Assembly: GCF_007833215.1 (NCBI RefSeq)
Contig: NZ_CP042239.1
Span: 124,001 to 188,000 of the forward strand
From: Sphingomonas suaedae
GTDB lineage: Bacteria > Pseudomonadota > Alphaproteobacteria > Sphingomonadales > Sphingomonadaceae
DNA: 64,000 nt
Reading direction: 5' to 3'
Below the pieces are notes generated by a model that saw only the letters and a program-made list of their open reading frames with translations, had not been told where the DNA came from and made no database searches. Positions 43,614 through 55,718 of the stretch are shown here, in pieces. The stretch's first letter is position 1, and the number at the start of each line of letters is the position of its first letter. The position numbers were made by a program, and so were the translations under genes.

Positions 43614-43698
43614 GTGCCCGCTTGCCCGGGGCGGTCAATCCGGTCATAGCTTCCAGACAGTGATTTCCGCCGTTTCGGCGCCCAACGCGGAGGACCGA

Positions 43699-44376
43699 GT
43701 GACCCTGATCCCCGACGTCGCACTGGCGGACAATACCAGCCAGCGATTGCCCTGCGTCGTGATCCTGGACGGCTCGTCGTCGATGGCGGAGGGTGGCGCG
43801 ATCGATGCGCTGAACGAGGGGCTCCGGCTGCTCGAATCCGATCTGAAGGCCGATGATGTCGCGCGGCAGCGCGTCCGCATCCTCGTGCTGCGGATCGGCG
43901 CCCCCAACGATGTTCAGGTCGTGACCGACTGGGTCGATGCGATCGATTTCGAAGCGCCGGAGATCGAGGCGAACGGCACCACCCCGCTCGGCCTCGGCGT
44001 GCATCGCGCGCTTGAGGAGATCGAGGCGGAGAAGGAACGGTATCGCGACAACGGCATCCCCTATAACCGGCCCTGGCTGTTCATCCTGACCGATGGCGAG
44101 CCGACGGACCTGGGCTGGGAACGCGCCGCCGCCGAATGCCGTGCCGCCGAAGAGGCAGGGCGGGTCAGTGTGTTCGGTGTCGGCGTCGGAGATGCCGGTC
44201 TGGACAAGCTCGCACGCTTCTCGACGCGCCAGCCGTTGCGGCTCAAGGGCCTCGCCTTTCGCGAATTTTTCCTCTGGCTCAGCCGCAGCGCGCGGGTGGG
44301 ATCGCAGGCGGCGCCGTCAGATGCGATCCAGATGGCGCCCCCGTCCGATTGGGCGGTGGTCCCGGGACGGAGCTGA
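43699..44376 (+). CDS. von Willebrand factor A domain protein (TerY-like)
   Basis: 225 residues from GTG 43699, set by GGAGG 6 nt upstream. vWA fold with MIDAS residues D24-G-S26-S-S28, then GTTPLG and LTDGEPTD, so it should bind Mg. C-terminal FREFFLWLSRSARVGSQ is the TerY pattern. First of three adjacent genes with PP2C phosphatase and kinase: the TerY-P phosphorylation triad as named by Anantharaman, Iyer and Aravind. No terD-like gene is in the window. Confidence 0.88.
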   Translation: MTLIPDVALADNTSQRLPCVVILDGSSSMAEGGAIDALNEGLRLLESDLKADDVARQRVRILVLRIGAPNDVQVVTDWVDAIDFEAPEIEANGTTPLGLGVHRALEEIEAEKERYRDNGIPYNRPWLFILTDGEPTDLGWERAAAECRAAEEAGRVSVFGVGVGDAGLDKLARFSTRQPLRLKGLAFREFFLWLSRSARVGSQAAPSDAIQMAPPSDWAVVPGRS

Positions 44377-44385
44377 GCGGGTCCT

Positions 44386-45168
44386 ATGAAACCGCACTGG
44401 CGCTTTGTCGGAACGTCAGTTGCCGGGCCCAGCCATGCCGCAGCGGGTCAGCCGTGTCAGGACAGCCATCGGGTCAAGACCACCCCCAACGGCGCGCTGA
44501 TCGCGGTGGTGTCCGACGGGGCGGGGTCGGCGCTTTACGGTGGCGAGGGCGCGGCGACGATTTGCGAGCGCGTGATCGCGCATCTCGAACCCGCGCTGGA
44601 CTGGGGAATGATGTGCCGCAGCCCGTTCGGACAGCTGGCGGCCGCGTGCCGGGCGGTACGCGACGCGGTGATCGACGCGCGGATGCATCTCGCCATGGCC
44701 GCGCAGGATAGCGGCGTGGGGATCAACCATTTTCACGCGACGCTGGTCGGGGTCGCGCTGGTGCCGGGGCAGGGGGGATTGTCCTTTCATATCGGCGACG
44801 GCGCCGCGCTCGCGCTCGCCGATGACTGGCGCTGGCGGCTGTCGGCTCCGGCAAACGGCGAATATGCCGACACCACCTATTTCTTCACCGAGCCCGATTG
44901 GCGCTCCCGTCTGCGCTTTGCGCGGATTGAGCCGGGGTTCGAAACCATATTCGTGATGACCGATGGCGTCACCGACATCGCGCTCCAGCAGCGCGGCGGC
45001 GCGAGCGAACCGCATCGGCCCTTTTTCGAGCCGATCGCGCGGTTCCTGGCGGATGCCAGCGTCGAAGATGGCGAGCGCGCGCTGCACGCGACGCTCGACA
45101 GCCCGGCGGTTCGCAGCCGCACCACCGACGACAAGACGCTGGTCTGGGCCAGTATGCGCGCGGGATGA
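44386..45168 (+). CDS. PP2C-type Ser/Thr phosphatase of the TerY-P triad
   Basis: 260 residues. PP2C metal-binding motifs: IAVVSDGAGSALYGGEGA (DGxG), SFHIGDGAALAL, FVMTDGVTDIAL and the late TTDDKTLVW aspartates. It probably removes phosphate groups added by the kinase encoded next, whose ATG overlaps this stop by 4 bp. Confidence 0.88.
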   Translation: MKPHWRFVGTSVAGPSHAAAGQPCQDSHRVKTTPNGALIAVVSDGAGSALYGGEGAATICERVIAHLEPALDWGMMCRSPFGQLAAACRAVRDAVIDARMHLAMAAQDSGVGINHFHATLVGVALVPGQGGLSFHIGDGAALALADDWRWRLSAPANGEYADTTYFFTEPDWRSRLRFARIEPGFETIFVMTDGVTDIALQQRGGASEPHRPFFEPIARFLADASVEDGERALHATLDSPAVRSRTTDDKTLVWASMRAG

Positions 45169-46853
45169 GCGGGGTGGCCTACTTCATCGGGCGCGAGCCC
45201 GGCGCGGCCCGCATCCGGCTGGGGGAGAGGCTGGGCGAGGGCGCCGCAGGCGCGGTCCATACGGTACGCGGACAAAAGGGCGTCGCCGCCAAACTCTATC
45301 ACCCGGGCAAGGGTCTCGACGCGCTGGAGCGCAAGATCGACGCGATGCTCGCGCGACCTCCCAAGCTGCCCCCGGTGGAGCATGAGGGGGTCGCCTATCC
45401 GCAGATCGCCTGGCCACAGGGGAAACTCTATGACGGACAGGGCAAGTTCGTCGGTTTCCTGATGCCGGAGATCGACTTTTCGCGCTCCACCAGCCTGGTG
45501 AACCTGCTCCAGCGGTCCAGCCGCCGTGCGGAGAAGCTGTCCGACTATTATGGCTATCGGGTCCTGGTCGCCCGCAATCTCGCATCGGTATTCGCGCAAC
45601 TGCATGGCGCGGGGCATCACATGATCGACATGAAGCCCGCCAATCTGCGCTTCTATCCCGCGCTCAGCTGGATGGCGGTCGTCGATGCCGACGGGTTCAG
45701 CATCGCGGGCCGCAATCGCCGCCTGCCCGCCGATCAGGTCAGCGACGAATATATCGCCCCGGAAAGCTGGCGGCGACAACCGGCCGAACTGGGCGAGCCG
45801 CAGGACCTGTTCGGCCTGGCGGTCATCATCTTTCAACTGCTGAACAACGGAATGCACCCGTTTGCGGGCAGCGGCGATGCCGGGCAGGCCAGCGATCTGC
45901 AAAGCCGGGTCCTGGCGGGCCTGTATGGCTACGGCCTCACAAAGATCGACGGCGCACGTCCCGGCGCGGCGAGCATTCACAAGACCTTTCGCCGGTCGAC
46001 CCGAATGTTGTTTGATCGCGCCTTTACCACGACCGACGATCGTCCGACCGCTGCGGAATGGCGCGACCATCTCGACGGGCTGGTCGGGATGCTGATCCCG
46101 TGCGAGGCAAAGCCGCTGGAACATGCGCATTTCGGGTCGGGGTGCGGCTTTTGCGCGCATGAGGCGCGGTTGCAGTCCGCAGCACAGGTGCATCGCGAGC
46201 GGGAGCAGAGGCGTGCCCGTCGCGCCAGCGCACAGGCACGCGCCCGTCGCCCGGTGCCGCTTCACGGTTCGGGCGTCCCCGGGGTGCCCTGGCCCGGCAC
46301 GATCGCACAATCACGGCGGGCGAATGCAGTGCCGCTATGGCAGTCGCGACCGGGCCTTGCCGGCACGGCCGGGTCCCGGCCCGGATCGCGCACGGCGGCG
46401 CTGGTCGCAATCCTGCTGCCGCTGCTCGCCCTGGGCGGGGCGATTGGCGGCGCGGCAAGTTTCTCGCGACAAGACCAGCGGACGGAAACCGATTTGTGGA
46501 ACGCCGCCTTCATCGTCGATGCGCGGTCCATGAAGGACGTGGATAGCGACCCGGCATCCATGGAGGAAACCGCCAACGACGCCGGCTCCGGGCCATGCGC
46601 GTCGCTATCCGGCTGGATCGAGAAACGCCTGTGCGAACGCCCGCAGCTGGCGGCGGCGGAACGGCAGGTCACGGCGCAATTCGAACGCACCGCCGCGCGT
46701 CACAGCGGCTGGGCGCGCCAGGCCCTCACCGACGAACATCTGCGCTGGCTCGAACGCCAGGGCCGCTGCGTGCTGATGCCGGATCCTGACCCCTGTCTTG
46801 CGGAAAGCTATGCGGACCGCCTCGCTGCACTGGAGAAGCGCGACGCCAGTTGA
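45165..46853 (+). CDS. Ser/Thr kinase with zinc ribbon, TM helix and LprI-like domain
   Basis: 562 residues, in four parts. Kinase 15-305: Gly-rich LGEGAAGAVH, K43, catalytic loop HHMID155MK157PANL, Mg loop VVD174ADGF, APE at 198-200. Zinc ribbon about 310-331: C313, H320/H322, C327-x2-C330, as in TerY-P kinases. Basic linker, then a hydrophobic segment at about 412-435. C-terminal about 470-560 is an LprI/DUF1311-like domain (CASLSGWIEKRLCERPQLAAAERQVTAQFERT...ERQGRC), which would lie in the periplasm. Third gene of the triad; the LprI tail is an unusual extra. Confidence 0.85.
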   Translation: MSGVAYFIGREPGAARIRLGERLGEGAAGAVHTVRGQKGVAAKLYHPGKGLDALERKIDAMLARPPKLPPVEHEGVAYPQIAWPQGKLYDGQGKFVGFLMPEIDFSRSTSLVNLLQRSSRRAEKLSDYYGYRVLVARNLASVFAQLHGAGHHMIDMKPANLRFYPALSWMAVVDADGFSIAGRNRRLPADQVSDEYIAPESWRRQPAELGEPQDLFGLAVIIFQLLNNGMHPFAGSGDAGQASDLQSRVLAGLYGYGLTKIDGARPGAASIHKTFRRSTRMLFDRAFTTTDDRPTAAEWRDHLDGLVGMLIPCEAKPLEHAHFGSGCGFCAHEARLQSAAQVHREREQRRARRASAQARARRPVPLHGSGVPGVPWPGTIAQSRRANAVPLWQSRPGLAGTAGSRPGSRTAALVAILLPLLALGGAIGGAASFSRQDQRTETDLWNAAFIVDARSMKDVDSDPASMEETANDAGSGPCASLSGWIEKRLCERPQLAAAERQVTAQFERTAARHSGWARQALTDEHLRWLERQGRCVLMPDPDPCLAESYADRLAALEKRDAS

Positions 46854-46865
46854 GGGGAGAGGGAC

Positions 46866-46939
46866 TGGAGCGGGTGAAGGGAATCGAACCCTCGTCGTGA
46901 GCTTGGGAAGCTCCTGCTCTACCATTGAGCTACACCCGC
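46866..46939 (-). tRNA. tRNA-Gly (anticodon CCC)
   Basis: Read on the minus strand: acceptor GCGGGTG pairs with CACCCGC, discriminator T, encoded CCA (46868-46866), D arm GCTC...GAGC, anticodon loop TTCCCAA (anticodon CCC) and T arm with GGTTCGATT. The gene is intact. Its 5' half (46901-46939) is duplicated at 55630-55668, marking the tRNA as an island integration site. Confidence 0.92.
46901..46939. repeat. Left attachment-site repeat (5' half of tRNA-Gly)
   Basis: GCTTGGGAAGCTCCTGCTCT (46901-46920) and the rest of the 39 bp cover the anticodon loop to the first acceptor base of the tRNA. Matches 55630-55668 except one base (ACCATT here, ACTATT there). The 300 bp to the right (46940-47242) contain no gene, only a terminator hairpin. 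Confidence 0.85.
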
Positions 46940-47074
46940 AATCTCAGTGCCTTAGCTGCCCTTCGGGTCCGATTTGGCTCTTTTCTGGCTCCGAAACCCC
47001 GAAGTTTCTATCTATCGGCGCGCGCCCGTTAGCAAGGCATTTTTGGATGCTGCATAGCTATCATGAAAATTAAA

Positions 47075-47096
47075 GCCCCCAGCTTTGGCTGGGGGC
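47075..47096 (-). terminator. Rho-independent terminator, leftward
   Basis: GCCCCCAGC-TTTG-GCTGGGGGC with TTTAATTTT following on the minus strand. It ends leftward transcripts from the island before the tRNA. No intact gene ends there. Confidence 0.75.
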
Positions 47097-47242
47097 AGGA
47101 TCATTCATTCGCAGCTCGTAGCCTCGTAACCGAACGCTCGTTGCTAATCCGGCTTCCAGCTGTCGCGCGGCTAAGCAGACTTACGCACAGCATGTTGAGA
47201 CTCACGCCTTGGATATCTGCAAGCCACATGAGGCGGTGGTGC

Positions 47243-47925
47243 TCAGGGCGCAAATATGCCGCGACAACGCAGCATGATTTCGCCTTTTCACGCCTCATCA
47301 AATGTGCGGGATGCGGGGCGGTCCCTGATCGGTGAGCGGCAAAAGGGCCACGTCTACTCCCGCTGCCATTCCGTCCCGTGTCGCGGCACATCGCTTGGCG
47401 AGCTCCAGATACAGGCCGAACTTCGAACCCTTCTCTCGTTGCTGACCTTGGACGACGGGGAGATTGGGGACTTGAGGGACTTATATGAGCATTCCCGCAA
47501 AGGAGATCGTGCGGAACGTGCTGCTGCGGTCGCGCAGGCCAAGCGTGCGCTCGGGCGCTGCAACGATCTACTGCTACGCCTGACCGACGCCTTCTTGGAT
47601 GGGACCGTCGAACCGGAGTTGTTCGAGAGGCGGAAAGCCAAGCTCCTCGCGGAGCGGCGTGACCAGATGACCTGATCGAAGCCCCATCTGCTGAGGGAGA
47701 AACGCTGACCGTACTCAAAAAGGTCGAACTCGGAAGAATGGCTTTGCACAAGGCTGAAATGGGGAACGGAGAGAAAACGCGCGAAGCGGTCTCAATGGTG
47801 ATGTCGAACCTTGTTGCGCAGAGAAAGCAGCTAGGGTTTGCGCTGCTATTTCCTTTCGACCGCCTCCTCGAAGAGCGGATTTGTTCGCATGGTGCTCCGT
47901 ATCGGGCTGAACCTCGAACCACTAC
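47243..47925 (+). pseudogene. Large serine recombinase, C-terminal remnant
   Basis: Only the C-terminal part survives, in pieces. From 47243 one frame reads SGRKYAATTQHDFAFSRLIKCAGCG, the start of the recombinase zinc ribbon; a 1-base insertion in a G run (about 47319) moves it to another frame: RSLIGERQKGHVYSRCHSVPCRGTSL, then ELRTLLSLLTLDDGEIGDLRDLYE and a coiled coil to LLAERRDQM. A second shift near 47670 leads to EAPSAEGETLTVLKKVELGRM...EKTREAVSMVMSNLVAQRKQLGFALLFPFDRLLEERI. The catalytic N-terminal domain is absent. The coordinates are approximate. 47926-48093 hold nothing that I recognise. Confidence 0.8.
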
Positions 47926-48093
47926 CACTTACTTTCGAACTTCCTGCCTCGCTCAAGTGATCGCGCCAAAGACAGCCGGGAGCTTCAAACAATTTCTGGC
48001 ACAGATTGCAAACAGCCGCAGTTCGCACTGACTCAAAAGCGATAACCCGCGCGAGGTGGGTTCGGGTCACTCGTTTTTCCGGCCGGACGAATC

Positions 48094-48318
48094 CTAGTGA
48101 GATGTTTTAAAGTATCGCGATCCAACCTCTTTCACTACTTTTTCAAATTGCGTACGAGCGCTATACATTTCGTCGAGAATTTCCTTCTCTAGATCGTCCC
48201 GCAATGCTTCTGGCGCGTCCGGGACGCGAGCCAACCTTTCATTTGCAGCTGCTAAACGCCTGCGATACGCGTCAGCAGCATCCTGCATGTCACTGTAGGC
48301 TTGCTCGGGGAAAGCCAT
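48094..48318 (-). CDS. Small helical protein at the end of the peptide operon
   Basis: 74 residues from ATG 48318, preceded by GGAGGACGTG; the frame extends to 48360 but those starts overlap the exporter gene. Almost all helical and charged (AFPEQAYSDMQDAADAYRRRLAAANERLARVPDAPEALRDDLEKEILDEMYSARTQFEKVVKEVGSRYF), with heptad-like spacing. It has no leader, no cysteine and no membrane segment, so it is not a fourth precursor. It follows the exporter by 23 bp and probably belongs to the operon. Role unknown: immunity, chaperone or regulator are all possible. Confidence 0.65.
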   Translation of the reverse strand: MAFPEQAYSDMQDAADAYRRRLAAANERLARVPDAPEALRDDLEKEILDEMYSARTQFEKVVKEVGSRYFKTSH

Positions 48319-48341
48319 CACGTCCTCCATGTATCGATCTA

Positions 48342-50522
48342 TCACTTTCCGGGAGCGCACGCCACGTCTGCAGTGTCGGTATCGAATTCAGACACTCCGG
48401 GATTTGGTGTGATGCTCTGGCTTTCAATCGATCCGTCCTCCCGCATAACGTACGTGCGATCCGCGTGCTTCCACACCTCAGGTCGATGCGAGATAACAAC
48501 GAGCGTACGAGAGGCGCGCTTGATACGGTTCAAAATCCTATCTTCCATATCGACACTTAAACTCGCCGTCGCTTCATCCAAAACAAGTATTTTGGGATCA
48601 CCAATGATTGCCCGGGCTAGCAGGATTCTCTGTCTCTGCCCCCCCGACATGCCGACAGTTTTCTCTGAGACCGGGGTGAGAATACCCATCGGCAAACTTT
48701 TTACAAACTCCTGCAGCTCAACTAATTGTAGCGCCTCACCAATGTCCTCATCACTCAAATTATTTCTATAAAAAACTATATTATCGCGAATGGAGCCTGA
48801 AATAAGTCGATCGCTCTGCAACACGGCATCCATTCCAATCGCTGATCCCGTAAATGGCTGCCCATCAACTGTTATCACTCCAGAGTTTGGGCGGTGTAGA
48901 CCAACTAGTATCTTGGCTAGGGTAGACTTGCCACTTCCCGACGCACCGCGAATTAAAACGCACTGACCGGGCTCCGCATCAAGAGAAATCCTATCTAAGA
49001 TTACACGATCGAGGCTACCGTATGAAAATGAAACTGAATTGAGAGAAATGAAACCCTTGTCCACAGACACTGTCGCCGGAGGGTCGCTCGGAGCATGTGG
49101 AATAAGGTCCAGACAGCGCAAGACATGTGTCCGCGCTTCACGTTGTTGAAACTTTAAGTGTATTAGGCTCCCAACGGAACTAGTGAAAAGATCTTTATAG
49201 ACGCCGAGCGCTACAAAGGCGCCTATCGTGTACCTACCCTCCCCCATTAACGCTGCGGCCCAAGATACGAAGATCAAAGTCTCTGCGGATTTGAGTAAGT
49301 TGGTAGTGGCGGCCTTCCAGCCACGAATAACTTGACCTTTGCCCTCGGCCAATGTGGCGCTCTTGCTCAATGCTACAAAGCGGGCCTTGGCTCGCGCAGG
49401 CGAGGCTGACCGGCGAATTGTTGGAATTTGAGCGAGCGTTTCCATTAGAAAGTTTTCACGACGCTGGCTAGTTTCGACGACAGTCGCAAGGTTTGCACGT
49501 TGAAGATCTGAAAACAGTAGGCCGAATAGGCTGATCACCGCTAACGAACATAGGCTAGGTACCGCTAGCCACGGCGATGTAAGAGTGAGGACCAGAACTC
49601 CCGCAACGAATGAAACAATCGCTGTGCCGAAGCTGCGATATGCTTCAACTTGGTTGATTAGATATGAATTCATCGCGCGTACCTTACCAGCAATCGCGGT
49701 GCTCGAATTATTTTCGAACCACGGCGCCGGCTTAGCAATAATCGCTGCGGCGGCGTGACGAGTTCCAAGACCTAGGAGGGTTTTGCGCGCTTTCCAATCC
49801 GTCACCTCCGCGAAGAAGGTAGCGAAGAGGCTGGCGATCGTGATCACTGCATATCCAATAAGGACCTTGTAGCCGAAAGACGCCGCTCCTAGGCTCGCAG
49901 AGTTATCGATCAATTGCATCGAAATAAGCGGCAATGCGAGGGCCATGATTTGAGAGACGCCAAAAAGCGTTAGCAGTCGGGAAACGCTCGCACTGCTCAT
50001 TTTCCAGTGCGCCCCGAGTCGGGGGGCGTGTTGGGTTCGACAGTTCGCGCTGACTTTTGATGGCGCGGATGCATCGACGAGTATTCCGAATCCGTGACTA
50101 AGCCTTTTCAGAGACGCGTGAGTCCTAAATGACCATCCTGTCTGAGGATCATAGACGTTGAACCGACTACCACGTCTGCTCTCAAGAACGACATAATGAC
50201 CCTGCTTTAAAAGAAGAGCTCCAGGTGTTGGATAGCTTTCCGGGCGGGCGGTATCAAAGAATATCACATCAGCCGCGTAGCCAAAGCTCCGAATACCGTC
50301 TCGAACCTGCCTGAGATCAAGGCCACGCGATGTAGTACCAAGGCGATTCTTTATCTCTACCAGCGTCGTTGGGCGTCCAAAACGCGCGAGCACTGCAGAT
50401 ATTGCGACATACCCGCAGTCGGCAAGTTCGCTCTGGGGTTCCACCAGGGGACGACGACGAACAGCAGCAAGCGCCCAGGGGATATTGGCAATTGTACTGC
50501 CAACTCGCTTTAAGCGAACCAT
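48342..50522 (-). CDS. Peptidase-containing ABC exporter (C39, PCAT type)
   Basis: Cleaves double-glycine leaders and exports the peptide. 726 residues. N-terminal C39 peptidase with the full catalytic set: Q30, C36 (ELADCGYVAISAVLARFG), H109 (LKQGHYVVLES) and D125 (VYDPQTGW). Transmembrane domain at about 185-465. ATPase at about 485-700: Walker A GASGSGKST, signature MSGGQRQRILLARAI, Walker B ILVLDEATASL, H-loop ISHRPE. ATG 50522 is 6 bp after the first-listed precursor gene. Codon use is AT-richer than in the host genes. Intact active sites argue that the cluster is functional. Confidence 0.93.
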   Translation of the reverse strand: MVRLKRVGSTIANIPWALAAVRRRPLVEPQSELADCGYVAISAVLARFGRPTTLVEIKNRLGTTSRGLDLRQVRDGIRSFGYAADVIFFDTARPESYPTPGALLLKQGHYVVLESRRGSRFNVYDPQTGWSFRTHASLKRLSHGFGILVDASAPSKVSANCRTQHAPRLGAHWKMSSASVSRLLTLFGVSQIMALALPLISMQLIDNSASLGAASFGYKVLIGYAVITIASLFATFFAEVTDWKARKTLLGLGTRHAAAAIIAKPAPWFENNSSTAIAGKVRAMNSYLINQVEAYRSFGTAIVSFVAGVLVLTLTSPWLAVPSLCSLAVISLFGLLFSDLQRANLATVVETSQRRENFLMETLAQIPTIRRSASPARAKARFVALSKSATLAEGKGQVIRGWKAATTNLLKSAETLIFVSWAAALMGEGRYTIGAFVALGVYKDLFTSSVGSLIHLKFQQREARTHVLRCLDLIPHAPSDPPATVSVDKGFISLNSVSFSYGSLDRVILDRISLDAEPGQCVLIRGASGSGKSTLAKILVGLHRPNSGVITVDGQPFTGSAIGMDAVLQSDRLISGSIRDNIVFYRNNLSDEDIGEALQLVELQEFVKSLPMGILTPVSEKTVGMSGGQRQRILLARAIIGDPKILVLDEATASLSVDMEDRILNRIKRASRTLVVISHRPEVWKHADRTYVMREDGSIESQSITPNPGVSEFDTDTADVACAPGK

Positions 50523-50528
50523 CCGTCG

Positions 50529-50792
50529 TTACACTTCGTGTCCACCACCGCCACCACCGCCACCGGTGCAGGTCCGAAAGTTCGTAGATCCCGCACAAAT
50601 GGTGCTATTGGCGCATGCGGTATTTATTGTGAAAGCACACGACGCATTAACGCACGCCGTCGAATTAGTAGAATTATCACACACCATGTTCGCGCCGCCG
50701 CTCAGCATAATGTCATATCTTGATACATCCTCAATGTCTGCATCAGTCAGAATTACGCGACCATCGCCATCGAGGCATATCTCAAAATGCAT
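50529..50792 (-). CDS. RiPP precursor peptide 1 (six-Cys, Cys-Asn repeat core)
   Basis: 87 residues, AGGAG ribosome site. Leader 1-33 with LDGDGRVILTDADIEDVS and double Gly at 32-33. Core: Cys at 38, 47, 52, 60, 66 and 75 with Asn at 43 (C+5), 49 (C+2), 57 (C+5), 62 (C+2) and 71 (C+5); that is, C-x4-N alternates with C-x-N with a period of 14. After C75 comes T, then eight Gly, then HEV. One more cysteine (6) is in the leader. The product after leader removal is about 54 residues. No similar named peptide comes to mind. Confidence 0.85.
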   Translation of the reverse strand: MHFEICLDGDGRVILTDADIEDVSRYDIMLSGGANMVCDNSTNSTACVNASCAFTINTACANSTICAGSTNFRTCTGGGGGGGGHEV

Positions 50793-50834
50793 GCTTCAAC
50801 TCCTATCTCAACCTTCAAAGACGTCGCGCAAGAG

Positions 50835-51113
50835 CTAATTCTCGTGAGGGCCCCCACCGCCGCCACAGGTGCGATTTTTCGTTCCTGTGCAGTCGAAAGA
50901 ATTGGTGCATGTAGTGAGATTTGTTGAACCCCCACATGAGAATGTATTAGTGCACTGATGGTTAGTCGTACCCGCGCACGAAAGCGAGTTCGCGCCACCT
51001 GCGATAGCCGTCTCAAACTCCCGAACACGCTCAAGATCGCTATCGGAAAGGGTCATTCGCCCCAGAGGATCCAACTGTATCTTCTGAGCGGGATCGCAAT
51101 CCGGTTGCATCAT
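50835..51113 (-). CDS. RiPP precursor peptide 2 (six-Cys, Cys-Asn repeat core)
   Basis: 92 residues, AAAGGTG ribosome site. Leader with LDPLGRMTLSDSDLERVREF and double Gly at 39-40. Core Cys at 46, 54, 60, 69, 75 and 83; Asn at 51 (C+5), 56 (C+2), 65 (C+5), 71 (C+2) and 80 (C+5). The repeat unit reads CAGTTN-HQ-CTN-TFS, CGGSTN-LTT-CTN-SFD, CTGTKN-RT-C. It ends GGGGG-PHEN. Leader cysteine at 6. It is the most regular of the three. Confidence 0.87.
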   Translation of the reverse strand: MMQPDCDPAQKIQLDPLGRMTLSDSDLERVREFETAIAGGANSLSCAGTTNHQCTNTFSCGGSTNLTTCTNSFDCTGTKNRTCGGGGGPHEN

Positions 51114-51144
51114 GCTTCACCTTTCGTGTCATGTCTCTTTTAAA

Positions 51145-51402
51145 TTAGTTTTCATGAGGGCCGCCACCGCCGTCCCGGCATTGGCCGTTCGTTGCACCGC
51201 CACATGCGCCTAAGTTGCTGCAAGCTTGATTAGTCGAGGTGGTACAAGAAAGCGTATTAGAGCAGGACCCGTTGGTGCCATGACACGTCATGTTGGTAGT
51301 CCCGCCCGCCGTCACGCCTGCGCTGATGGATACGTTTTCGAGAATCGTTTCGTCTTCAATGATGTATCGGCCGAGTTCATCAAGGCGCATCAGTTGCTGC
51401 AT
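51145..51402 (-). CDS. RiPP precursor peptide 3 (six-Cys, Cys-Asn repeat core)
   Basis: 85 residues from ATG 51402, chosen because GGAGATAGAC precedes it and because the leader (MRLDELGRYIIEDETILENV) then lines up with the other two; ATG 51420 is in frame but has a poor ribosome site. Double Gly at 33-34. Core Cys at 40, 47, 53, 61, 67 and 75; Asn at 44 (C+4), 49 (C+2), 58 (C+5), 63 (C+2) and 72 (C+5). Ends GGGG-PHEN. First precursor after the radical SAM gene. Confidence 0.86.
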   Translation of the reverse strand: MQQLMRLDELGRYIIEDETILENVSISAGVTAGGTTNMTCHGTNGSCSNTLSCTTSTNQACSNLGACGGATNGQCRDGGGGPHEN

Positions 51403-51440
51403 GTCTATCTCCGCTGTCATGCCACTGCATTTTGAATCAA

Positions 51441-52514
51441 CTACGCGACTGACTCAGCAGAGCGCTGATTGACTAGAGCCTGAGTCATATCGGAGAGCGG
51501 GCAAGCCAAGTCCCTCGGTTCCAGGGTTCCCACCCCGCGAACCCAAGGTTGGAGCTTGCTGTTGTCAATGGACAGGCTGCCGTCGGGATTCACTCGTCCG
51601 ATGGTGTTGCGATCATCATTCAATGCTACGGTACATTTACCGATTCTGCCATCTGCACGGATTAAGAGAGAGTTGGGCTTTGCCGCGTAGCAAATGTAAC
51701 GCGGCGCGGGCGCTGTACTGCCTGAAGGGCTCTCGCCATTCGCTGAGGCGCAATCGAATTCGCCTCGATTAGCCGCTCTGCGACGCAAATCGGACTCAAT
51801 CTCCTTAAGCTCCTTCATCGAAACCGGATTCAGGACCGTTTGGCCCCCTTCACCCCCCAAATCCCTAAGATGCTCGAAATCTAGCGAAAACCTGGAGTCG
51901 TCACCGAAATTGTCAGCAATTTCCTCAACTAACTTCTCAAGCGACGAGCGATTGTCGCGGCGGACATGTATACGAAGGACGATACTGAATTGCTCAGAAA
52001 CGTCCCTCATGGCCAATAGGTTTTGCCAAATACGATCGAATGTGGATTTACCGTTCGCCAGTCTTCGCACAACATCGTGTCCCGCGCCCCAACCGTCCAG
52101 GGTAATCTGAAACGAACGCTGCTCAAGATGAACCAACTCCGTGAACAAGTCCGGCGAAAGAAGAAACGCGTTTGTGGTCATGCCGCTTATCAGCGAAACC
52201 TCGTGTTCATCGCACCGCGCTTTTGCATGGCGCAGAAGCCGAAGGACCACATCCCGTGCGACCAACGGTTCGCCGCCGAACCATTCAATCTTGAGTACTT
52301 TGAGAGATTCGACTCTACGATCGATGTAGCGCTCAAGCGATTTAATTGTCGTTTCAGACATTTTACCGATGGCAAAATCTTCGTAGCAGTATGTGCACCG
52401 AAAATTGCACTGCTCGGTCGGTAATATGAACAGCTCTTGGATGGCAGGAGTTAGGATTGACGCAATCTGCTGCGCGGGGAACTCATCGTTTCCGAGCGAA
52501 AAATTTGCGTTCAT
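51441..52514 (-). CDS. Radical SAM peptide-maturation enzyme with Twitch/SPASM-type domain
   Basis: 357 residues from ATG 52514 (a GTG at 52550 is in frame). Radical SAM cluster motif C36-x3-C40-x2-C43 (EQCNFRCTYCYED), GGEP at 80-83, and the later beta strands of the partial barrel. The C-terminal region has C275-x13-G-x4-C294 and C338, the pattern that begins SPASM/Twitch domains; there are too few cysteines for a full seven-Cys SPASM, so one auxiliary Fe-S cluster is likely. I see no obvious N-terminal RRE (PqqD-like) domain. First gene of the minus-strand operon, next to three Cys/Asn-rich precursors that are its probable substrates. Confidence 0.9.
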   Translation of the reverse strand: MNANFSLGNDEFPAQQIASILTPAIQELFILPTEQCNFRCTYCYEDFAIGKMSETTIKSLERYIDRRVESLKVLKIEWFGGEPLVARDVVLRLLRHAKARCDEHEVSLISGMTTNAFLLSPDLFTELVHLEQRSFQITLDGWGAGHDVVRRLANGKSTFDRIWQNLLAMRDVSEQFSIVLRIHVRRDNRSSLEKLVEEIADNFGDDSRFSLDFEHLRDLGGEGGQTVLNPVSMKELKEIESDLRRRAANRGEFDCASANGESPSGSTAPAPRYICYAAKPNSLLIRADGRIGKCTVALNDDRNTIGRVNPDGSLSIDNSKLQPWVRGVGTLEPRDLACPLSDMTQALVNQRSAESVA

Positions 52515-52794
52515 ACCTGAATTCCCCCTAGCTCGAAACTTGGCCCCCACTCTACATTAAGTAAAAAGTGACAGGGCTAACGGGGGCGGTCAAGTAGATT
52601 GTTCCATACGCTTTTAGCCATTATTTGTGGTCTTATAGGTTATGTGCGACTTGCCGATTGGTGTCGCGCCGCCCAGATTTTGCTGGAGGTCCCGTAGGAG
52701 GTGCGGTGTTTGGCCAGTTGCTGCGGAGCTTGGTGCTCGGTAAGGTGGATATGATCGCAAAGGGGCGCAGCGTGCATACGGCAAATTGGGGCCC
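52515..52794. promoter_or_regulatory. Divergent promoter region of the peptide operon and receptor gene
   Basis: 280 bp between the two divergent start codons, AT-rich around 52551-52650. It must hold promoters for both directions. I cannot point to a convincing -35/-10 pair or Fur-type box by eye, and no regulator gene lies in the island. Confidence 0.4.
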
Positions 52795-54885
52795 ATGAGT
52801 GTAGCTGGTTGGTTCCTTCTCGCGAGCCAGCTGGGCGCGACGCCAGAGGCGAACGCGCAGTCGACTGCGCCATCTCAGAGTGCGCCCGGGCCCGACGATA
52901 GCGAGGTTGTAATCGTTGCAACTAGTGGGGATCAGGTACTTATTGATCGTAATGTGTACGAAATCAGAGATACACCTAGTACTCAGACGAAGGCCGTCAT
53001 TGAAATTCTCAGGATGTTACCCTCCGTATCCGTTGATGCGGGAGGACGCCTACAACTCCTCGGCGACAATAACGTACGGGTGCTGGTTGATGGGCGCCCG
53101 CCGCCAGGCGGTATCGGATATATACGTACACTGCAGGCGAGTCAGATTTCCCGCATCGAAATTATTACCAATCCCTCTGCTCAATTTTCGTCGGAAGGAA
53201 CGGCGGGAGTTATCAATATCATTACCCGGAAGTCCTTTGGTCGAGGGCTGAAGGGGGCTACAAACGTCTCTGGGAGCTCGCTCGGAGGATATGGGGCTCG
53301 GCTGTCTGCGACTTGGGGCGATAGCCTCTGGTCGATATCCGGATCGCTCGTTGCTAGTCACGGGGTCGAAAAGGCCAGCCGTAGTCTCGAACGCACGCCT
53401 CGCGATGGGGTGTCTGGTCCGGCGGTTGATCGAGCAGAGATTGAAACGACTCGTTACAATCAGGATCTGATAAGTGCGCGATCATCCATTCAGCGGAAGT
53501 TCGGAGTTGGCAAGAGTCTCACTCTCGCAGCAACTATATCTCATACCGCAAACAACAGTGCGGGCCGTGCCGATATATCGTCGAATCAAAATTCCTTTAT
53601 CCCGTTCGTTCAGTTCACGAGCGGGGCTGGAACCGCGCGCAGTACTCAACTCGACCTGACCTATAGCGCGGCTGGCCGCGAACCAGGCGAAAGCTTGAAC
53701 GTGTCGATCTCGTACGGCATGAATGTTTTGGACGCCGAAACGATCTTCCAAGACCGGCGCCTCATCGATGGACGCGATTTTTTTCGCGCACAGAGCGCCA
53801 GTTACAGAACTGGCGTCGCGAAAGTGGATTACACGCGTCCAGTTCTATCAAAGGGAGTCTTGTCCGCGGGAGCTGAAGCGTCCCTTAATCATGGGACGAT
53901 GGGAGCGGCTGCGTTCGGGGAATCCTTTACCGCCCCGGCCCGATCCGTGACATCTGAGGTCGCTGCCGATTGGTCAGATGTTGCGGGTTACCTCACGTAC
54001 CAACATACCTTGAAGAAGTGGAAGGTGCTGTTGGGATTGCGCCTTCAGCATCGCGCCTACTATTTTCACGCGCCGCAAAACGGAGCTAATGGCGTTTTTG
54101 TTGCGCCGAGTCTGCATGTGGAGCGGGAGATCGGTTCGAAAATTTCGGTTCGTGGAAGCTACACGCGCCGAGTCGATTGGCCGGAATACAACTACCTCAG
54201 CCCCGCCATTCAACTTTCTAGCTCAGTCACAGGTCGGATTGGGAATCCCGATCTCGAACCGGTGATCACCAGCGCCTACGAATTGAAGGCTTCCCTAACG
54301 GCAGGGCGGCAGATTATCGATGTGACGGGATATAGTAGGCAGGGTAGCGGCGTCTGGTCTGACATTTCAACGCTAGGCGCCGATGGTATTATACTTTCTC
54401 GTCGTGTAAACGCCGGCACGCAACAGCGCTATGGCGGGGAAGTTTCGCTCCGCGGACCCATCTCGAAGAAACTGAAATATACCGTAACCATCGATGCAGC
54501 AAGTGAATCTCGGGAACGCTTTGATTTAAATGCGCTCGTAAGACGTAATGCAATTTTCACATATGGCTCCAATATACAGATTGAATACGCTGACAAAGAT
54601 TCAAATCGCGCTGGATTTGATCAAATATCGTTAGGCATGTCTCTTGTGGGTCCCCAGGGAGATCTTCAATCTAGGGCCGATGCATTTACGTCAGGATATA
54701 TTACTTGGACGCGAAACATCTCAGATAGATTGTCAATGACATTTCATGTCAATAATCCCATTGGCCGTTCTAGGTACTATCTGAAATCAAGCTCAGCAGA
54801 TTATTATGAAAGGCAATATGGATCATCGTTTGCTCCGACTTTTAGATTAACTATAGGCTATCGTATTGAGCCTAGTAAAAAGTAG
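52795..54885 (+). CDS. TonB-dependent outer-membrane receptor
   Basis: 696 residues from ATG 52795 (a TTG lies 9 bp upstream in frame). Short signal peptide ending ANAQ. Plug domain about 35-150 (VYEIRDTPSTQTKAVIEILRMLPSVSVDAGGRLQLLGDNNVRVLVDGRPP, ISRIEIITNPSAQFSSEGTAGVINIITRK), then a 22-strand-type barrel (LDLTYSAAGREPGESLNVSISYGMN, GNPDLEPVITSAYELKASLTAG) ending in an aromatic strand, RLTIGYRIEPSKK. Resembles the outer-membrane beta-barrel_3 type. Divergent from the peptide operon, so it is a candidate importer of the mature peptide, a metal-peptide complex, or a self-protection component. The last 400 bp are strikingly AT-rich. Confidence 0.87.
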   Translation: MSVAGWFLLASQLGATPEANAQSTAPSQSAPGPDDSEVVIVATSGDQVLIDRNVYEIRDTPSTQTKAVIEILRMLPSVSVDAGGRLQLLGDNNVRVLVDGRPPPGGIGYIRTLQASQISRIEIITNPSAQFSSEGTAGVINIITRKSFGRGLKGATNVSGSSLGGYGARLSATWGDSLWSISGSLVASHGVEKASRSLERTPRDGVSGPAVDRAEIETTRYNQDLISARSSIQRKFGVGKSLTLAATISHTANNSAGRADISSNQNSFIPFVQFTSGAGTARSTQLDLTYSAAGREPGESLNVSISYGMNVLDAETIFQDRRLIDGRDFFRAQSASYRTGVAKVDYTRPVLSKGVLSAGAEASLNHGTMGAAAFGESFTAPARSVTSEVAADWSDVAGYLTYQHTLKKWKVLLGLRLQHRAYYFHAPQNGANGVFVAPSLHVEREIGSKISVRGSYTRRVDWPEYNYLSPAIQLSSSVTGRIGNPDLEPVITSAYELKASLTAGRQIIDVTGYSRQGSGVWSDISTLGADGIILSRRVNAGTQQRYGGEVSLRGPISKKLKYTVTIDAASESRERFDLNALVRRNAIFTYGSNIQIEYADKDSNRAGFDQISLGMSLVGPQGDLQSRADAFTSGYITWTRNISDRLSMTFHVNNPIGRSRYYLKSSSADYYERQYGSSFAPTFRLTIGYRIEPSKK

Positions 54886-54959: not shown

Positions 54960-55488
54960 CTAGCTGAGCGAAGGAATGTGGCGGTGCGGGGAGCGGGTGC
55001 ACCACGTGAAGAAGGTCCGCTCCACCCGATAGACGTGAAGCTGCATGCTCGGCGTCGACGCGAGTTTGTCGAGCACGCGACGGATGTCGCCGTCAGTAAT
55101 CTCCGCGACCTGCTTGTGCTCGATTCTCCCCAAGTGCTTCTTGAGGATGAGTTCGACCTTGTGCGCCCAGCTGTTCGTTGAGGCGGGGTCGTAGTGATTG
55201 GTGAGGAACTCGTCGCGGGCGTCCTTAACGGTTTTGCTCACTGGCTTCGGATCGCTTGTGGGGGCGGCAAGGAGCCGCTTCGCTTCTGCTCGCGTCCGCG
55301 AGCGACATGTCGCCATACTTGCCGGTCGAGATGCGCTCGCGGGTGCGCCCGCGCATCACGGTCCATGTTTTTGATCGTTTGCCGACCCGGACGCCGAAAC
55401 CGGGCGTCGTCGTGTCCCAGTAGGTGGCGTGCTTATCCGAGCCTTTGAGCGCCTTGACCGACAAGTCCGTCAGATGAAGATTTGGCAC
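54960..55488 (-). pseudogene. P4-type tyrosine integrase, N-terminal remnant
   Basis: GTG 55488 starts PNLHLTDLSVKALKGSDKHATYWDTTTPGFGVRVGKRSKTWTVMRGRTRERISTGKYGDMSLADA, the arm-type DNA-binding domain of P4-like integrases. A 2-base deletion in a GCGC stretch (about 55298) shifts the frame to RAEAKRLLAAPTSDPKPVSKTVKDARDEFLTNHYDPASTNSWAHKVELILKKHLG...VERTFFTWC, the SAM-like core-binding domain; it then stops. The catalytic domain with the R-H-R-Y residues is absent. The remnant points towards the right attachment repeat, 140 bp away. Confidence 0.85.
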
Positions 55489-55629
55489 GTTCTGGCTCCG
55501 ATTTGTCTCCGCAATGTGAGGCGTAGGAGCGAGAAAGAATGTGCCAGATGAGAAGGTTAAATGCACGTAAGTTTTTGACTTACTTGCATTTTGAGAAGCT
55601 ATGAGAAAGCTTGCTCAGCTGTGCAGAAT

Positions 55630-55668
55630 GCTTGGGAAGCTCCTGCTCTACTATTGAGCTACACCCGC
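55630..55668. repeat. Right attachment-site repeat (partial tRNA-Gly copy)
   Basis: 39 bp matching the 5' half of the tRNA-Gly (46901-46939) except T for C at 55652. It is truncated in the anticodon loop, so it is not a tRNA gene. It probably represents the 5' half of the original chromosomal tRNA, with the island having supplied the new 5' half to the intact gene. Confidence 0.85.
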
Positions 55669-55718
55669 GAGGCGCGCTGAAATCCCGCATTCGCGCCGGA
55701 TGTCAAGCGCTCTCCGGT

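Follow-up and report, generated by a model that had tools for sequence, protein, structure and literature searches.

We analysed a 64,000-nucleotide stretch of the Sphingomonas suaedae genome (contig NZ_CP042239.1, positions 124,001 to 188,000; hereafter the window), which holds a gene cluster for a putative ribosomally synthesised and post-translationally modified peptide (RiPP). A minus-strand operon running from 52514 to 48094 encodes a radical S-adenosylmethionine (SAM) enzyme, three short cysteine-rich precursors, a C39-peptidase ATP-binding cassette (ABC) exporter and a small orphan protein, and a gene for a TonB-dependent receptor diverges from the radical SAM gene and adjoins the operon (Table 1). 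We propose that the enzyme joins the six core cysteines of each precursor to asparagines lying three or four residues upstream.

Gene content of the cluster

All of these genes had been named and placed by a preliminary description made from the letters of the window, and all were found where it put them; the extent that it gave, 48094 to 54885, fell short, as the unit reaches past it to a pair of 39-bp repeats that bound it on either side. The radical SAM gene starts at the ATG at 52514, which is preceded by GGGGGAATTCAGGT, with a GTG at 52550 as an alternative. Pfam scans recognised Peptidase_C39, ABC_membrane and ABC_tran in the exporter, and Plug, TonB_dep_Rec_b-barrel and OMP_b-brl_3 in the receptor. 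The catalytic motifs reported earlier were likewise confirmed: the enzyme carries CNFRCTYC (CX3CX2C), and across seven aligned exporters the Cys of DCG and the His of GHY in the C39 domain are invariant, the putative triad Asp being kept in the window exporter and replaced by Tyr in three related loci (L007, L012 and L024; loci are referred to by number where they must be told apart).

The small helical protein at the end of the operon has no relative in the 18 related loci, and a protein search returned its own record alone. It was therefore dropped as a conserved cluster member, and whether it is part of the system is uncertain. A scan for promoters and terminators gave fewer sites than shuffled sequence, and its result was not used.

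Table 1. Features of the cluster, of the island that carries it and of related loci (window positions unless a locus is named)
Feature	Position	Strand	Remarks
Radical SAM peptide maturase, 357 aa	51441..52514	-	No RiPP recognition element (RRE) domain; three conserved C-terminal Cys (putative auxiliary cluster)
Precursor 1, 91 aa	51145..51420	-	6 core Cys, all with Asn at -3/-4; tail GGGGPHEN
Precursor 2, 91 aa from ATG at 51110	50835..51110	-	6 core Cys, all with Asn at -3/-4; tail GGGGGPHEN
Precursor 3, 87 aa	50529..50792	-	6 core Cys, all with Asn at -3/-4; tail GGGGGGGGHEV
C39-peptidase ABC exporter, 726 aa	48342..50522	-	Putative role: leader cleavage after GG and export
Small helical protein, orphan, 78 aa from ATG at 48330 (88 aa from GTG at 48360)	48094..48330	-	
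TonB-dependent receptor, OMP_b-brl_3 type	52795..54885	+	ATG at 52795; TTG at 52786 gives a longer frame
tRNA-Gly (CCC)	46866..46939	-	Integration site
39-bp direct repeat, copy 1	46901..46939		5' part of the tRNA-Gly gene
39-bp direct repeat, copy 2	55630..55668		97% identical; far end of island
Tyrosine-type integrase remnant, Arm-DNA-bind_3 domain	54960..55566	-	Two overlapping open frames; no catalytic domain found
Accessory proteins of about 300-340 aa	L009 11650-12666; L010 9534-10550, 12962-13936; L014 10338-11246; L023 3017-4045		

Asparagine precedes the core cysteines by three or four residues

Each precursor bears the features first ascribed to it, namely a leader ending in GG, six core cysteines and a Gly-rich tail closing on HEN or HEV, with one additional Cys in the leaders of precursors 2 and 3. 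All 18 core cysteines of the window have an upstream Asn, one for each Cys, nine as N-x2-C and nine as N-x3-C. Comparison of the precursors with NCBIfam and Pfam gave no meaningful match, and a known class from either library was rejected on that ground.

Homologous precursors adjoin the enzyme gene in related loci, and across 31 non-redundant, multi-repeat precursors 169 of the 180 core cysteines have Asn at -3 or -4. This compares with a mean of 58.8 (standard deviation (sd) 5.5, maximum 77) in 2000 shuffles, in which the cysteines were held fixed and Asn was counted between a Cys and the preceding Cys. The preliminary description had instead singled out alternating C-x4-N and C-x-N spacing, which would have the same cluster and class of enzyme join each Cys to a downstream Asn. 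That spacing is enriched as well, with Asn at +2 or +5 for 135 of the same 180 cysteines (shuffle mean 55.1, sd 5.6), and the columns C59, N64, C68 and N70 are invariant in our precursor alignment (A3). The ends of the arrays, however, set the two pairings apart. The first Cys has a downstream Asn in 23 of 31 precursors, whereas in 30 of 31 it is preceded by an Asn that falls outside any Cys-to-Asn pair; the last Cys has an upstream Asn in 27 of 31 and a downstream one in only 4, so that the downstream pairing leaves it without a partner in 27. Since the A3 precursors had been gathered mostly by their Cys-to-Asn pattern, the bias of this comparison ran in favour of the downstream pairing and against the upstream result. 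The upstream precursor of L016 and the downstream precursor of L017, two of the 28 found by the profile described below, were left out of both A3 and the 31-precursor count.

We then turned to more distant relatives, whose precursors were chosen without reference to their cores. At least 595 stretches of the genome collection matched the search pattern, 576 of them encoding a relative of the enzyme, and the best 80 were kept as loci; 66 of these (80 minus 14) make up the distant set. Short plus-strand open reading frames (ORFs) within 1.5 kb of the enzyme gene were selected by a leader pattern, giving 45 ORFs in 38 of the 66 loci and, after removal of two clearly unrelated ORFs, 43 precursors. 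The conserved leader, read by eye from alignments, is approximately [IV]-x-L-D-x-x-G-R-x-x-[LI]-x-D. Asn stands at -3 or -4 before 63 of the 111 cysteines of this set (shuffle mean 17.2, sd 3.5, maximum 30), the residue at -3 being Asn in 56 cases and Asp in 12, and the motif occurs in 37 of the 43 precursors, against 15.1 in shuffles; Asn at +2 or +5 is at chance (15 against 14.0). With no leader pattern applied, at least two N-x2/3-C motifs were present in 54 of the 1601 short ORFs that lie up to 1.5 kb from the enzyme gene and in 39 of the 6608 more remote ones, and 34 of the 80 loci hold such a short ORF nearby. Leader-pattern ORFs, for their part, make up 51 of 1625 short ORFs near the enzyme and 29 of 6018 far from it (loci longer than 20 kb).

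Because the first-Cys, last-Cys and distant-set counts all favour the upstream Asn, the unit appears to be Asn-x2/3-Cys, as in the streptococcal peptide NxxcA. The C-x4-N/C-x-N spacing was ruled out as the main ring-defining one by the same tests, N-x2/3-C being the more general, and a product in which each Cys is joined to a downstream Asn we regard as improbable.

Precursor and enzyme genes occur together

A profile built from the precursors gave 28 matches in 14 of the 19 enzyme-carrying genomes. None is more than 3.7 kb from the enzyme gene, and for 23 of them the distance is at most 700 bases; the remaining five carriers gave no match. Most of the 28 had themselves served to build the profile, so that these matches were expected, and the informative result is that none was found elsewhere in the genomes. 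In a sample of 385 genomes of the class, the genome of the window was the sole one matched (0 of 384 others), and a protein search with the profile returned eight matches, one of them the window's own. Precursor homologues standing apart from any radical SAM gene, which the preliminary description had named as the outcome that would speak against it, were thus not encountered.

The radical SAM enzyme has no room for a recognition domain

Three further cysteines of the enzyme are kept across 25 aligned relatives, C275 and C294 invariantly and C338 in at least 90%. The arrangement C275-X13-G-X4-C294 with C338 is conserved, and the CX2CX5CX3C stretch of the SPASM pattern is absent. In an AlphaFold2 model (mean pLDDT 82) the barrel begins at residue 25, so that the roughly 24 residues before it leave no room for an RRE domain, and none of the nine proteins scanned gave a PqqD-like Pfam match. 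Cysteine-rich precursors lie beside a radical SAM peptide maturase, as in ranthipeptides, and the enzyme lacks the N-terminal RRE that is typical of, though not defining for, that group.

The nearest solved structure, both by sequence profile (5wgg, E 1.3e-20) and by fold (5why/5wgg, TMq 0.61-0.62), is the SCIFF maturase CteB, which at about 450 residues differs from the window enzyme with its short N-terminus. The best NCBIfam match is TIGR04463 (rSAM_vs_C_rich), a radical SAM/SPASM maturase family that was not named in the literature searched; the window enzyme scores 143.4 bits against a cutoff of 525, and five distant relatives have the same best match, likewise below cutoff, the six enzymes together spanning 124-159 bits.

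Other scores bear on the carbon that would be bonded. With the same N-x2/3-C pairing, the thioether could go to the alpha-carbon of Asn, as in sactipeptides; the letters of a gene cannot reveal the type of bond, and Asn is listed among sactipeptide acceptor residues (PMC8326336). The enzyme nevertheless scores higher against the PapB (NF047865; 92.7 bits, cutoff 340) and SCIFF (TIGR03974; 59.3 bits, cutoff 425) models, both missed at cutoff, than against the sactipeptide model RumMC (49.7 bits), and the small in-line rings predicted here would be closer to NxxcA and freyrasin than to the hairpin found in most sactipeptides (PMC8326336, the comparison being our own). An alpha-carbon bond therefore seems unlikely to us.

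The cysteines might also stay free or form disulfides, in a metal-binding or disulfide-rich product, with the enzyme altering Asn in some other way such as epimerisation. The epimerase EpeE is indeed among the fold matches of the model, and six cysteines per peptide next to a TonB-dependent receptor would be compatible with metal uptake. Neither metal binding nor disulfide formation, however, needs a near-fixed Asn-Cys distance with one Asn for each Cys, and the best fold and sequence matches are to a thioether enzyme; we regard this reading as improbable. Cyclophane or triceptide chemistry was rejected, the core of precursor 1 being devoid of Phe, Trp and Tyr.

The enzyme family is wide, and rare in the genomes sampled

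A protein search scored 7996 candidates and gave 2964 relatives of the enzyme at E <=1e-15; the 120 listed are, the enzyme's own record aside, 49-61% identical to it and are called, if anything, 'uncharacterized protein' or 'radical (SAM) protein'. Sampling found the enzyme in 1 of 385 genomes from the class and in 4 of 396 from the order, its own genome being counted in both. A tree of 59 rows places the window, with good support (99/97 and 100/97), in sets of 10 and 11 proteobacterial rows; among the remaining rows are Cyanobacteriota, Actinomycetota, Bacillota, Bacteroidota, Planctomycetota, Acidobacteriota and further groups.

Several relatives show expanded arrangements. In Massilia sp. 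CF038 (L012, 11157-14931) five precursors surround a single enzyme and exporter, and in UKL13-2 (L010, 7786-12913) the enzyme-precursor pair is duplicated. A gammaproteobacterial locus (L015, 9718-12784) carries seven different ORFs with at least two N-x2/3-C motifs near the enzyme, followed by a C39 exporter flanked by genes for 422- and 444-residue proteins that could be secretion partners. Three contigs from a viral collection (L122, L123 and L126) encode the enzyme together with an N-x-x-C precursor, which in L122 and L123 has five N-x-x-C in series; this suggests mobile carriage, the viral identity of the contigs being putative.

Exporter and receptor in related loci

Of the 18 related loci, 12 encode a relative of the exporter with the C39 part included; it is split or cut in L009, L019 and L020. 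Receptor relatives occur in three of the 18 (L007, L008 and L011), all of them Caulobacterales and all of the OMP_b-brl_3 type. The divergent layout of the window, with the receptor on one side and enzyme, two precursors and exporter on the other, recurs in L008 and L011, while L007 has the order enzyme-precursor-exporter-receptor. Within its genome the window receptor scores highest against PF14905 (135 bits, the next 74), and the cluster receptor ranks second of 11 in the L007 genome, first of 7 in that of L008 and third of 18 in that of L011.

Re-import of the product by this receptor is plausible. The receptor may, however, be a chance neighbour or unrelated cargo, with the product exported as an antimicrobial or signal and not taken up again: no receptor homologue was seen in the stretch fetched for 15 of the 18 related loci, several of which encode in its place another accessory protein, some 300-340 residues long. 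On the other side stand the recurrence of one receptor type beside the cluster in all three Caulobacterales loci, its presence on the small island of the window and its leading PF14905 score there. We hold a receptor unconnected with the product to be a serious possibility, if one at somewhat less than even odds.

The accessory proteins lie beside the enzyme in several receptor-less loci (Table 1), have an N-terminus that is hydrophobic by eye and gave no Pfam match. Those of L009, L010 and L023 are homologous (L009/L010 28% and L023/L010 22% identical), and the family may take the place of the receptor in these relatives.

The cluster lies on a small island at a tRNA-Gly gene

A tRNA-Gly gene on one side and a repeat of its 5' part on the other delimit an island of some 8.7 kb that holds the whole cluster; an integrase remnant lies just inside the far repeat. 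In 1-kb steps, GC content is 49-57% inside the repeats (47 to 55 kb) and 61-69% in the steps outside. In the congener G015, the tRNA directly joins sequence like that found past the far repeat of the window (L159 592-671 against window 55630-55708, 86% identical), although this is no clean empty site, as about 0.8 kb of other sequence precedes the shared transporter gene and the other flank is unlike the window. The enzyme was found in none of 36 congeneric genomes. Given the tRNA repeats, low GC, integrase remnant, G015 junction and absence of the enzyme from these congeners, the most likely reading is that the cluster is a horizontally acquired, mobile unit and makes up the main cargo of a small integrated island, the integrase of which has apparently decayed. 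A plasmid origin was rejected, since the listed PLSDB matches span the tRNA stretch alone, 1% of the query.

Between the tRNA-Gly gene and the cluster (47063-48031) lie three short plus-strand ORFs, one ending in CAGCGAVPDR, which look by eye like serine recombinase remnants; none gave a Pfam match. Just outside the island (43660-46853) stand in series genes for a VWA-domain protein, a PP2C phosphatase and a weak, below-cutoff protein-kinase match, a row that we take to resemble a phosphorylation triad.

Comparison with known systems

The closest precedent in sequence motif is the NxxC family of radical SAM RiPPs (Streptococcus orisratti and S. porci), in which an enzyme likewise acts on its own precursor at Asn-x-x-Cys with the Asn upstream. 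NxxcB links Cys23 to the beta-carbon of Asn20 in streptococcal NxxcA (PMC8326336, PMC13361665); the Cys-Asn bond as such is also given in PMC11002830. Asn-x-x-Cys is present in the window cores, in half of their Cys, and recurs as the -3 preference of the distant relatives. NxxcA has the single bridge Cys23-Asn20 (PMC8326336), whereas each window peptide has six candidate pairs at both x2 and x3 spacing, and the window adds C39 export, a receptor and an island.

Six motifs per precursor recall freyrasin of Paenibacillus polymyxa, whose radical SAM maturase PapB installs six Cys-Asp thioethers in one peptide (PMC9413430). There the acceptor lies downstream, in CX3D (PMC9413430), whereas the window has Asn upstream and lacks the CX3D/E arrangement, and its enzyme is without an RRE-like N-terminal domain. 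For the pairing of exporter and transporter, a RiPP precedent exists in the itf cluster of Bacteroides thetaiotaomicron, which combines a radical SAM enzyme, YcaO, a C39-ABC protein and a TonB-dependent transporter (PMC11002830); its precursor and chemistry are different, with a backbone amidine and an Ile-Thr-Phe motif.

More than 250 clusters of such enzymes have been mapped (PMC9062424), and the Asn-x2/3-Cys family may be among them. No description of a tandem family of this kind was found in the literature searched, which was mostly open-access and does not establish its absence from print. The earlier statement that the precursors fit no known RiPP class holds for the NCBIfam and Pfam models and was otherwise too strong, the NxxC arrangement being known from Streptococcus; what appears to be new is the six-fold array and a wide family that has no name in the libraries searched.

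Proposed mechanism

As the window motif combines the NxxC arrangement with a PapB-like six-fold array, we propose that six in-line Asn-Cys thioethers are formed in each peptide by a radical SAM enzyme lacking an RRE, followed by C39 cleavage and export and probable re-uptake through the receptor, a reading to which we give a probability of about 0.6. The enzyme would bind the short conserved leader directly, without an RRE domain, and abstract a hydrogen from the Asn side chain, most likely at the beta-carbon; that carbon would then be bonded to the thiol group of the Cys located three or four positions further on. Six repeats would yield a chain of 4- and 5-residue rings, with linkers alternating between short (x1) and longer (x3-4). 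The C39 exporter would cleave after GG and export products of 51 to 54 residues, and the divergent receptor would most likely re-import the product or a complex of it. With all six rings closed, the monoisotopic masses predicted for the cleaved peptides would drop from 4946.948 to 4934.854 Da (precursor 1), from 5184.118 to 5172.024 Da (precursor 2) and from 5174.141 to 5162.047 Da (precursor 3).

A number of observations weigh against this proposal. The upstream-Asn rule is broken by 11 of the 180 core cysteines, and in the distant set no Asn stands at -3 or -4 before 48 of 111 cysteines, and the motif is missing from 6 of 43 precursors; exceptions include N-x-C in L049 and L026 and the absence of Asn before Cys in L025. 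The leader pattern recognised no precursor in 28 of the 66 distant loci (in some of these, L032, L037 and L069, it missed ORFs that do bear the motif), and 8 of the 59 tree rows have a leader-pattern ORF but no motif and 13 have no recognised leader-pattern ORF. The 25 best NCBIfam matches of the enzyme all stay below their curated cutoffs, and the likeness to NxxC lies in the precursor motif. Finally, only a few alphaproteobacterial loci show the link to a receptor, and the genome of the window holds 25 PF14905 matches by itself.

Taken together, the observation behind the preliminary description is well supported, and its interpretation names the right kind of system but the wrong pairing. 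The reading as a RiPP cluster was borne out by the joint presence of enzyme, precursors, C39 exporter and receptor; the suggestion of sactipeptide- or ranthipeptide-like thioethers with Asn as the likely partner is upheld, as a prediction, by the N-x2/3-C enrichment, by CteB as nearest structure and by the precedents of NxxcB and PapB. A broader generalisation would see an RRE-less class of radical SAM enzymes across phyla that uses one short leader and makes Asn(C-beta)-S-Cys bonds at N-x2/3-C, the window representing a six-ring, re-imported branch on a tRNA-Gly island; we offer it tentatively, and think it rather doubtful in this full form.

Implications

What began as a one-off observation on three peptides becomes a rule that can be put to the test: Cys follows Asn by three or four residues, in distant bacteria too, and from this spacing ring positions and exact masses can be predicted ahead of experiment. 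If the proposal is true, the single-ring NxxC chemistry of streptococci would extend to tandem arrays made by enzymes without the usual leader-binding domain, which would help in the engineering of stable cyclic peptides. With a receptor gene next to the cluster, gene deletion offers a direct test of what the peptide is for.

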